Part shown: one piece after another, positions 46,449-48,836 of the stretch | How positions within the stretch are numbered: position 1 is the first letter of the stretch | Layout of the letters: every line of letters begins with the position of its first letter | Assembly (NCBI RefSeq): GCF_016803135.1 | Contig: NZ_JAEVFE010000009.1 | Coordinates: forward strand, 1-64,000 | DNA: 64,000 bases | Direction: 5' to 3' | From: Altererythrobacter sp. C41 | Lineage (GTDB): Bacteria; Pseudomonadota; Alphaproteobacteria; Sphingomonadales; Sphingomonadaceae | Translations under genes and position numbers: made by a program | Notes under the pieces: generated by a model | Told to the model about the DNA's origin: nothing | Seen by the model: the letters and a program-made list of their open reading frames with translations, nothing else | Database searches by the model: none

Positions 46449-47231
46449 ATGGCCAGCGCGCCGCAGCCCAACCTGCCCCTGTTCTACAACGACCTCATGC
46501 CGCTCAACAGCCGCGATCACGCGAAGTGGCACAGCAAGGGCATCGATTCGGCGAAGTGGCTGACGAGTCAGCACGCGATTCCGCTGACGGTCGACGAATT
46601 CGTCCAGGCGCAGCGCGATTATCCGATCGTCTTCTCCTCCGGCGACAACCCGCTGCCGCTCGCGCTCATGGGTCTGAACGAAGGCGTGAACACGTTCGTG
46701 GACGACGAGGGCAAGGTGAACGAGCCGGTCTATCTCCCGGCTTACATCCGCCGCTACCCCTTCATGCTCGCCAAACTGCGGCCCGATTCCGATGAGCTGT
46801 CGCTCTGCTTCGATCCGACCACCGAATCGCTGGGCGAGTTCTCGGAAGGCGACGCCCTGTTCGACGACGAGGGTCAACCGGCCGATGCGACCAAGCGCGC
46901 TCTCGAGTTCTGCCAGCACTTCGAGGAAGCAGGCCAGCGGACCAAGGCATTCATCGACGAGCTGAAGAAGCACGATCTGCTGATGGACGGCGAGATCGCC
47001 ATCTCCATGCAGGACAATCCGGATCGCCCCTACGTCTACCGGGGCTTCCAGATGATCAACCAGGAAAAGCTGCGCGAAGTGCGCGGCGACGTGCTGCGCA
47101 CCTGGTGCCAGAACGGCTTGCTCGCGCTGATCTACGCCCACATGTTCTCGCTCGACCTGATGCGCGCGATCTTCGCGCGTCAGCAGCAGCAGGGCAAAGG
47201 CCCCGAGCTGGTGCCCGCAGCGACGAACTGA
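46449..47231 (+). CDS. SapC family protein
   Basis: The 260-residue protein matches the SapC family (named for a Campylobacter S-layer-associated gene), common in sphingomonads and caulobacters. It has YNDLMPLNSRDHAKWHSKGI, DYPIVFSSGDNPLPLALMGL and YLPAYIRRYPFMLAKLRPDS, and a C-terminal alpha-helical part MINQEKLREVRGDVLRTWCQ. There is no signal peptide. In several alphaproteobacteria it is near TonB-dependent receptor or tryptophan halogenase clusters, but not here. Function unknown. Confidence 0.88.
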   Translation: MASAPQPNLPLFYNDLMPLNSRDHAKWHSKGIDSAKWLTSQHAIPLTVDEFVQAQRDYPIVFSSGDNPLPLALMGLNEGVNTFVDDEGKVNEPVYLPAYIRRYPFMLAKLRPDSDELSLCFDPTTESLGEFSEGDALFDDEGQPADATKRALEFCQHFEEAGQRTKAFIDELKKHDLLMDGEIAISMQDNPDRPYVYRGFQMINQEKLREVRGDVLRTWCQNGLLALIYAHMFSLDLMRAIFARQQQQGKGPELVPAATN

Positions 47232-47266: not shown

Positions 47267-47294
47267 TTGAAACATCCCGGCACGCAACCTATCT
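47267..47294 (+). promoter_or_regulatory. Promoter of the candidate sRNA
   Basis: TTGAAA (47267-47272) is separated by 16 bp from CTATCT (47289-47294). Both resemble the alphaproteobacterial -35/-10 pattern (TTGAC, CTATAT) and the spacing allows a start near 47300-47302. TTGAAA is also compatible with a heat-shock sigma factor. It lies in the gap after sapC. Confidence 0.55.
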
Positions 47295-47300
47295 CCTCGG

Positions 47301-47405
47301 TATCGGAACGGCGCTCCCCTCATAGCCTGTTCCGATCGGTGCACTGCGGTGCACCTCCTCCCTGAACCTTGGCCACCTCGTGCATTTTGCACGAGGTGGT
47401 TTTTT
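47301..47405 (+). ncRNA. Candidate small RNA with anti-Shine-Dalgarno motif
   Basis: About 105 nt, with three stem-loops read directly. Hairpin 1: ATCGGAAC (47302-47309) pairs with GTTCCGAT (47329-47336), with an inner GGC/GCC and a loop containing CTCCCCTC. Hairpin 2: GGTGCAC (47338-47344) pairs with GTGCACC (47349-47355). The single-stranded CCTCCTCCC (47354-47362) follows at once. Hairpin 3 is a 12-bp terminator (47373-47384 with 47388-47399) with TTTTTT. The CCUCCUCCC motif is that of the alphaproteobacterial anti-SD sRNAs (alpha-r14/cuckoo group), which repress mRNAs by base pairing. No protein frame is plausible here. Confidence 0.7.
47373..47405 (+). terminator. Intrinsic terminator of the sRNA
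   Basis: A perfect 12-bp stem with a TTT loop (CCACCTCGTGCA / TGCACGAGGTGG) is followed by six T. It is among the strongest terminators in the window and would also stop sapC read-through before the converging amidohydrolase gene. Confidence 0.93.
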
Positions 47406-48349
47406 CATTCTGCGGCGAGCGGGAGCGCCCCGTTTCTCCCGAGCGCGGCGACCGCATCGCCAAGTTCCCTGACGAACCCGGTCAGCAAGCGCGCGACAGC
47501 AGGCATGCGCGCAGAGGCTTCCGCGAGCCGCGCATCGAGATAGCTGGAGCGGCAGATTTCGAGTTGCAGCGCATGAATGGCGCGCGCCGGCACCCCATGC
47601 CGGTCGAGAATGTAGCCGCCAGCATAGGGCCGATTGTGCGCGGTACGCCGCTCGAACCGGGCGAAGTATGCGAGCCCTTGCGCCGCAAGGGCGGAATCGC
47701 ACGAGGCACCGAAACGGTCGCCCAGCACGAACTCCGCAGTGCGATCGCCGGGAAAGCGCGGCCTGAGCGGCGGCATCGAATGAAGATCGACCAGCAGCGC
47801 AGCGCCCCAGCGGTCGCGCAGGGTCTCCAGCGCGCCGGCGAGCTGCGCGTGGTAGGGCCGATGAATTCCGTCGATCCGCGCCTCCAGATCGTCCCTGGCC
47901 ATCGGCCCTTTCCAGATTTCCCCCAGTCCGCCGAGGCGGCGCGGCACGAGGCCCAGGCCGCTGCGCGAACGGCGGTTGAGCGCCGAATGCGGTGTCTTCC
48001 TCGGCGCGCCACCGGCGACCATCGACCAGTCCATGTCGTCGCAGGCACGATTGAGGTCGAGCATGGCCCGCGGCGCATGCGCGACGAGCAATGCGGCACC
48101 GGTCGCAGCGGCGATCTCGCGCGCGAGCAGATCGGTATAGCGATCCTCCAGCCGCAAGGCGCTGTATTCGGGATCGCGCATGCGTTCCCGCACGGTTTCG
48201 GGATAGCAGCGGCCGGCATGCGGCGCCGCAATCAGAACCGGGATCGGCGTTTCGCGCGGCATCTCCAGCGTGAATGCCGGCTCGTCGGTGCCAGGGATCG
48301 CCCCGCCCGAGACCCGCTCGCCGCACCCGCTGGAATTGCGCTCGTCCAT
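47405..48349 (-). CDS. N-formylglutamate amidohydrolase
   Basis: The 314-residue protein belongs to the zinc N-formylglutamate amidohydrolase (HutG/FGase-like) family: VLIAAPHAGRCYPETVRERM (metal His), LEDRYTDLLAREIAAATGA, MLDLNRACDDMDW, LLVDLHSMPPL and NRPYAGGYILDRHG. The enzyme class forms formate and glutamate in histidine breakdown, though no hut genes lie here. I chose the ATG at 48349 because AAGGA sits 5 nt upstream; an ATG two codons earlier overlaps it. It is divergent from cpdR, a pairing often seen in alphaproteobacteria. Confidence 0.9.
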   Translation of the reverse strand: MDERNSSGCGERVSGGAIPGTDEPAFTLEMPRETPIPVLIAAPHAGRCYPETVRERMRDPEYSALRLEDRYTDLLAREIAAATGAALLVAHAPRAMLDLNRACDDMDWSMVAGGAPRKTPHSALNRRSRSGLGLVPRRLGGLGEIWKGPMARDDLEARIDGIHRPYHAQLAGALETLRDRWGAALLVDLHSMPPLRPRFPGDRTAEFVLGDRFGASCDSALAAQGLAYFARFERRTAHNRPYAGGYILDRHGVPARAIHALQLEICRSSYLDARLAEASARMPAVARLLTGFVRELGDAVAALGRNGALPLAAE

Positions 48350-48446
48350 TCGCATCCTTGCTGGACCGTTAGCGACGATGTGTCAAAGCAGGGCAATGCC
48401 GACAAGGCGAAAGATTTCTTAAGCCGGGGGCGCTAAGCGAACTCTC

Positions 48447-48836
48447 ATGAGCGAACGCAACGGCCTCAGGATACTTCTCGCCGAAGACGAGGAGGCGATG
48501 CGCGGCTATCTCGCCCGCGCGCTGGAAAATGCCGGCTATGAAGTGACGGCCGTCGATCGCGGAACGCAGGCCGTTCCGTTGCTCGAATCGCAGCATTTCG
48601 ACCTCCTCCTGTCGGATATCGTCATGCCGGAAATGGACGGGATCGAACTCGCGCAGCGCTGCGGCGAAGTCAGCCCGCGAACCAAGGTGATGTTCATCAC
48701 CGGATTCGCCGCCGTGACGCTGCGGGTGAGCCGCGAACAGCCGCAGGCGAAGATCCTCTCCAAACCCTTCCATCTGCGCGACCTCGTGCTCGAGATCGAA
48801 CGCGTGTTCGAAGACTGTCTGCCCGCGACGGTCTGA
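48447..48836 (+). CDS. cpdR: Cell-cycle response regulator CpdR
   Basis: The 129-residue single-domain receiver has the acidic pocket ILLAEDEEAMRGYLARAL, the phosphorylation Asp in FDLLLSDIVMPEMDGIELA (about Asp55), VMFITGFAAVTLRVSREQ and ILSKPFHLRDLVLEI with the switch Lys. The MFITGFAAV segment and lack of an output domain are CpdR marks. In Caulobacter, unphosphorylated CpdR takes ClpXP to the pole to degrade CtrA; its phosphate comes from CckA via ChpT. cckA is also in this window (from 62709). Confidence 0.9.
   Translation: MSERNGLRILLAEDEEAMRGYLARALENAGYEVTAVDRGTQAVPLLESQHFDLLLSDIVMPEMDGIELAQRCGEVSPRTKVMFITGFAAVTLRVSREQPQAKILSKPFHLRDLVLEIERVFEDCLPATV

Follow-up and report, generated by a model that had tools for sequence, protein, structure and literature searches.

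Which regulatory RNA lies between the SapC gene and the converging gene for N-formylglutamate amidohydrolase (FGase) in Altererythrobacter sp. C41, and with which alphaproteobacterial family does it belong? A sequence-only reading of the window, by which the whole 64-kb stretch of DNA analysed is meant, had proposed a compact small RNA (sRNA) gene with its own promoter and terminator at this locus, and had placed it among the alpha-r14/cuckoo RNAs. The gene is upheld by the analysis described here, whereas the family is not.

The RNA gene, its fold and its conservation

The features of the locus are collected in Table 1. The fold of 47301-47405 has an energy of -56.3 kcal/mol, compared with -28.7 +/- 3.3 kcal/mol in 200 shuffles, none of which equalled it (z -8.43); with the start placed one base later (47302-47405) z is -7.94. 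A terminator scan gave one site (47371-47401) where 0.1 was expected, in agreement with the proposed terminator stem and its six T, and a Rho-independent terminator is also a feature of alpha-R8 RNAs. In the Rfam scan of the entire window, two tRNAs were the sole matches reaching a cut-off. The fold, the covariation and the matches in 169 of 199 genomes of the family together confirm the compact sRNA gene on the forward strand. Two details of the sequence-only reading have to be narrowed. In the supposedly unpaired CCTCCTCCC (47354-47362) UCCUCCC is free in the fold but the first two C are paired in hairpin 2, and in the motif said to be displayed by hairpin 1 CCCCUCAU is free but the preceding G-C-U is paired.

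Table 1. Positions in the window of the sRNA gene, its parts and the neighbouring genes
Feature	Position	Strand	Details and basis
Promoter-like element	47267..47294	+	TTGAAA 47267-47272, N16, CTATCT 47289-47294; read from sequence
sRNA gene, ~105 nt	47301..47405	+	putative start, from promoter spacing; fold, covariation, model R1 matches
Hairpin 1, 13 bp	47302..47336	+	apical loop CCCCUCAU at 47316-47323; covariation, fold
Hairpin 2, 7 bp	47338..47355	+	loop UGCG; covariation, fold
Single-stranded linker	47356..47370	+	anti-Shine-Dalgarno core UCCUCCC 47356-47362, then UGAACCUU; fold, conservation
Intrinsic terminator	47371..47405	+	stem 47371-47383 with 47389-47401, U-run 47400-47405; fold, terminator scan
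FGase (N-formylglutamate amidohydrolase), converging neighbour	47405..48355	-	stop codon overlaps last T of T-run; PF05013, E 3e-62
SapC gene, upstream neighbour outside the RNA	46449..47231	+	PF07277, E 6e-71
Response regulator beyond FGase	48447..48836	+	PF00072, E 1e-22

Compensatory change in related genomes, which the earlier reading had named as a check on its three stem-loops, is found in alignment A4 of 99 sphingomonad sequences. There, 26 of the 33 pairs change on both sides, with 632 such cells against 159.5 in shuffles, and 96.2% of cells are paired, compared with 34-51% after sliding by 1 to 3 columns; these controls are given because A4 was fitted to the structure and is hence biased towards it. 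All 13 pairs of hairpin 1 change on both sides (its two parts have 93.2% and 83.4% of their cells paired), as do all seven of hairpin 2 (99.1%) and six of the 13 in the terminator stem (99.6%). The three hairpins are under selection. A4 took in 99 of 150 window-type loci, 69 of them retrieved by the linker motif, and was aligned to covariance model R1, which had been built from 13 sequences (the gap-poor seed A2); four antisense terminator matches and one weak second match were left out by a stricter E-value. The seed replaced a first MAFFT alignment (A1, 41 sequences), whose consensus fold, owing to a misaligned hairpin 1, held only hairpin 2 and the terminator.

The linker varies little in its letters. 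Its 18-mer CCUCCCUGAACCUUGGCC (47357-47374) occurs in 98 of the 99 aligned sequences, 69 of these retrieved by the linker motif itself, and in all 30 loci from the DNA search; those loci, the best-scoring of 70 genomes, also all carry CUCCCUGAACCUUGGCC. UCCUCCC is present in 80/99. When the RNA is folded alone, CUCCC is more than 50% unpaired in 97/99 sequences and more than 80% unpaired in 89/99. With longer fragments that include DNA past the terminator, just 27 of 140 best folds leave the whole 13-nt linker stretch free, and as read from these folds it appears to pair chiefly with DNA past the end of the RNA or upstream of its start. Hairpin 1 exposes an unpaired CCC in 96/99 sequences, with two loop types, CCCUCAUGGCC and CCCCCCUUUCGCG. 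The UCCUCCCUGAACCUU linker is thus conserved and predicted to be accessible, the hairpin-1 loop providing a second C-rich site in the folds, and the exposed anti-Shine-Dalgarno core proposed from the letters is supported as a prediction of the fold.

A plain DNA search found matches in 70 of 148 relatives. R1 found the RNA in 169 of 199 Sphingomonadaceae genomes, the other 30 giving no match with a model whose filters lose weak ones, and it matched 106 of 147 genomes in the order and 37 of 385 in the class; the top score outside the family, among the matches listed, was 45.7 bits. A linker-motif scan with one genome per species gave at least 120 stretches. Those listed are labelled as Sphingomonadales or genera that we take to belong to it, except L057, L061 ('Actinobacteria' bin), L144 and L150, whose labels are broader or odd; in L061, SapC, FGase and a response regulator of the same kind are present. 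Two further matches were noted. One, in Novosphingobium sediminicola, is a weak second R1 match (27.3 bits, L134:461-556, minus strand) that lies about 100 bases away from the first and could be a tandem copy. The other is a second window-type match of 29.6 bits (L238, G643:C1:1655630-1655726) in a genome that also holds a stronger one, with no FGase relative in the 4.1-kb stretch considered.

Gene address and family

The neighbourhood of FGase is the address of alpha-R8 in most alphaproteobacteria, and sisA adjoins FGase in Caulobacter (PMC12559287). The window RNA has the same adjacent gene. FGase is present in 29 of 30 loci of C41 and its relatives and in 112 of 120 listed named-genome loci, two sets that overlap in species; at the one locus of the first set without it (L008) the contig ends just past the RNA. 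Rfam model RF00519 (suhB/MmgR) matched 63 of 115 genomes over the class, and a converging FGase lies within 1500 bases in 25 of 29 of the best loci outside the family. In Sphingomonadaceae the same model matched 190 of 199 genomes, 161 of them over the cut-off, and FGase was in reach of none of the 21 over-cut-off loci considered (C6:107664 of C41 and the 20 best). From these counts and the published address it follows that the window RNA occupies the place of alpha-R8, and that the Rfam 'suhB' of these sphingomonads lies elsewhere. The counts vary with the choice of loci, since the class loci found with R1 have a converging FGase in reach in 14 of 26 and lack it in 12 of 26. An Rfam scan of 20 such class loci put 19 above the RF00519 cut-off. 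In 16 chosen R1 loci from other Sphingomonadales families, FGase is present in 13 and the canonical alpha-R8 10-mer UUUCCUCCCU in 15. The response regulator beyond FGase, which resembles CpdR, has a relative in 6 of 26 class-wide loci.

RF00519 scores 30.0 bits on the window (E 1.8e-4 in 351 bases), below its gathering score of 41 and the best of RF00519, RF02344 and CcsR1. A second model, R2, for which 23 alpha-R8 sequences linked to FGase were taken from outside Sphingomonadaceae, recognises the window RNA as a homolog at 23.1 bits (E 4.8e-5). It matched all 30 window-type loci that it was given, 24 at E<=0.001 and six at 0.0012-0.15, whereas in 27 unrelated gene loci no match had an E-value under 0.66. 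R2 scores equally well on the 21 paralog loci, and ortholog and paralog are therefore told apart by gene order, not by sequence alone; R1 at E<=0.001 gave no match in C41's own RF00519 locus (L002).

With MmgR of Sinorhizobium meliloti and SisA-D of Caulobacter crescentus, the window RNA shares the converging FGase, a hairpin, a single-stranded UCCUCCCU core and the terminator, and its linker CCUCCCUGAACCUUGGCC is close to the CCUCCCUGAACUUGGGCC found in many RF00519 RNAs across the class, a likeness that extends past the anti-Shine-Dalgarno part. It differs in several respects. The exact 10-mer occurs in 3 of 99 aligned sequences, its counterpart in the window being CCUCCUCCCU, with 8 of 10 letters the same and the first two paired in the stem rather than single-stranded. 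The weak hairpin that precedes the core in alpha-R8 is here a stable one of 7 bp. There is a 5' hairpin with a C-rich loop, found also in one class-wide group (L157, L158, L160), and the promoters lack an excess of PhaR-type sites. Because the 10-mer and the Rfam cut-off are not matched, the RNA is filed as a diverged positional ortholog and not as a plain member. We consider it probable that the window RNA is a trans-acting sRNA and the strongly diverged Sphingomonadaceae positional ortholog of alpha-R8 (MmgR, SisA; RF00519). The claim that no such RNA had been assigned to this locus in sphingomonads holds insofar as no paper in the literature searched was found to name it there, but the FGase neighbourhood is itself the published alpha-R8 address (PMC12559287). 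Among the papers listed in that search, most of them judged by their entries, none gave a description of the RNA at the FGase locus in sphingomonads; the main alpha-R8 phylogeny lay outside the search, so that an earlier notice is possible. Sphingomonad members may already be covered by that phylogeny (Lagares 2016).

Two loci of one genus (L236 and L237, g77) have the core GUUCCUCCCUGA at the FGase locus and may be transitional forms linking canonical alpha-R8 to the window type. Three RF00519 copies lie within 600 bases at G180:C7:54432-55030 (L246), and in some sphingomonad genomes RF00519 matches as many as seven times at E<=0.01.

An unrelated anti-Shine-Dalgarno sRNA, not an ortholog, might have appeared next to FGase and acquired the same core by convergence. 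Such an origin would fit the lack of preference of R2 for the window type over the paralogs, the missed RF00519 cut-off, and the departures from alpha-R8 in hairpin 2 and in the first two core letters. It is nevertheless unlikely, as the FGase neighbour is the same, converging and close by as in most class-wide loci, the linker likeness reaches beyond the anti-Shine-Dalgarno part, and the canonical 10-mer is present in 15 of the 16 chosen loci of other Sphingomonadales families. Even less probable is a decoy or sponge that would use its C-rich loop and linker to titrate some other, G-rich RNA and would not act on mRNAs. Pairing between sRNAs does exist in the alpha-R8 family, where SisA of Caulobacter is itself titrated by CrfA (PMC12559287); in that pair, however, it is the G-rich RNA that serves as the sponge, and the alpha-R8 RNA as the regulator.

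More doubtful again is a product of the sapC 3'UTR, or its terminator, with no independent gene. The end of sapC does lie on the same strand about 70 nt before the RNA start, but the positioned promoter is conserved in relatives, the core lies anywhere between about 120 and 3700 bases from SapC, and some loci with both the RNA and FGase (L018 and L031, for example) show no SapC. A mere terminator, moreover, needs neither hairpins 1 and 2 nor an invariant linker.

Least probable of all is the alpha-r14/cuckoo (CcsR-like) assignment of the sequence-only reading, since the covariance model RF02344, which matches end to end and shares the letters CCUCCUCCC, scores 28.4 bits (E 0.0013), less than half of its gathering score of 58.8, with all ten pairs of its second hairpin non-standard in the alignment, and since gene order and R2 lead to alpha-R8. 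RF02344 was also absent from the search of the C41 genome, though no control genome matched either. SmelA075 and SmelA099 are presumably cuckoo/alpha-r14 RNAs. Their motif is in hairpin loops (PMC3927594), and the RF02344 consensus likewise has it in both loops, whereas the window RNA has it once, in the linker, its own loops being CCCCUCAU and UGCG. CcsR1 (RF02791) shares CCUCCUCCC, judged by its Rfam name, and a terminator, but the window scores 10.5 bits against its gathering score of 65.3. RNAI (RF00106, 22.2 bits of 47), TarB and the other Rfam matches all fell under their cut-offs and were taken as chance.

Promoter, possible PhaR control and the relocated paralogs

The window-type RNA has a positioned promoter in the relatives. 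TTGA or TTGC occurs within -52..-28 in 97 of 98 upstream regions (one of 99 was dropped, its upstream being too short), compared with 17.8 and at most 28 of 98 in mononucleotide shuffles, and it sits at -33 in 51, at -32 in 25 and at -34 in 12. TTGAA is found in 67 and CTTGAA in 50 of the 98, often with a TATCTT-like second box; because of the CTTGAA, heat-shock (RpoH) control was considered. The promoter proposed as TTGAAA-N16-CTATCT can be read directly and its TTGAA-type hexamer is kept at -32 to -34 in relatives, but a generic sigma-70 scan of the window region found no promoter.

PhaR (AniA) binds the mmgR promoter and represses mmgR (PMC8401924, PMC12542648). The inner part of the published motif, YGCRNYGCR, was counted with dinucleotide shuffles as control. 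Class-wide, 21 of 29 upstream regions of RF00519 RNAs contain it (2.8 in shuffles, max 7). For the sphingomonad paralogs the count is 9 of 21 (3.6, max 10), a suggestive result and no more, and for the window-type regions it is 6 of 98 (4.6, max 12), which is no excess. An ad hoc pattern, TGCN3GCA, superseded by the published core, gave 15/29, 9/21 and 2/98, respectively. PhaR is encoded in the C41 genome. A possibly new point is that the window-type promoter appears to be without the PhaR site that alpha-R8 promoters commonly have, and that a relocated paralog may carry one.

The SuhB-type paralogs (L002 and L182-L201) share an upstream stretch like TTTTCGCACTTGCACAAA, and 18 of the 21 contain GCACTTGC, compared with a mean of 0.0 and at most 1 in shuffles. 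Transcription of suhB reportedly benefits from PHB granules, and SuhB of Sphingopyxis granuli TFA is a 61-nt, Hfq-dependent RNA that acts on thnR (PMC6563040). A PhaR site could explain the granule effect. The TFA RNA is, like the window RNA, a sphingomonad sRNA tied to RF00519, after which it is named, and likely works in the same way; it differs in length, at 61 nt against about 105 nt, and judged by this length it is more likely a relocated paralog (like L002, with core AUCCUCUCCCAAGACUUU) than the RNA of the window locus. Tentatively, in Sphingomonadaceae the two components of alpha-R8 identity may have separated: the copy at the ancestral FGase address would have shed the PhaR (PHB-sensing) site and turned into a rigid anti-Shine-Dalgarno RNA under different control, with two sites, the C-rich loop and the linker, while the relocated paralog, SuhB, kept or regained PhaR control; this scenario is possible, though the odds are somewhat against it.

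Proposed action and significance

The RNA of about 105 nt would be transcribed from its own promoter and end at its own terminator. By analogy with its relatives, it most likely silences mRNAs by covering the ribosome-binding site, probably with Hfq: the linker would pair with the Shine-Dalgarno regions of several mRNAs, where these are purine-rich and of the AGGGAGG type, and block translation, contact with the leaders being expected through UCCUCCCUGAAC, and Hfq bound at the U-tail would assist the pairing. SisA represses through the 10-mer in an Hfq-dependent manner, and TonB receptors are among the genes repressed (PMC12559287). Likely targets, by this analogy, would be TonB-dependent receptors and other nutrient-uptake genes.

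An Hfq gene is present in the C41 genome. Hfq usually has one Sm domain; the C41 gene (G000:C1:263084-263509, L268) is a single frame with two tandem Sm domains (108.3 and 83.9 bits). AGGGAGG-N4-9-ATG occurs at 28 sites in the genome, two of which share one place, compared with 10 for the reversed pattern. Pfam searches of 20 downstream frames gave TonB-receptor plug domains in three, including L278 and L290; in L292 the plug domain stands behind an M19 dipeptidase domain in one open frame. DUF885, beta-lactamase-fold and amidohydrolase proteins are also found downstream of such sites. Coming from one genome, the candidate targets are a lead only.

Known alpha-R8 RNAs take part in the carbon storage of Sinorhizobium (MmgR) and in the feast-to-famine switch of Caulobacter (SisA) (PMC12559287, PMC8401924). 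At its cut-off Rfam misses the sphingomonad copy that occupies the ancestral address, and Rfam annotation shows the paralog, SuhB, in its stead. The locus makes a case for tracing the address, the sequence and the promoter control of an sRNA separately through evolution. Sphingomonads are widely used in pollutant breakdown, and recognising the window-type RNA gives them a second likely global regulator.
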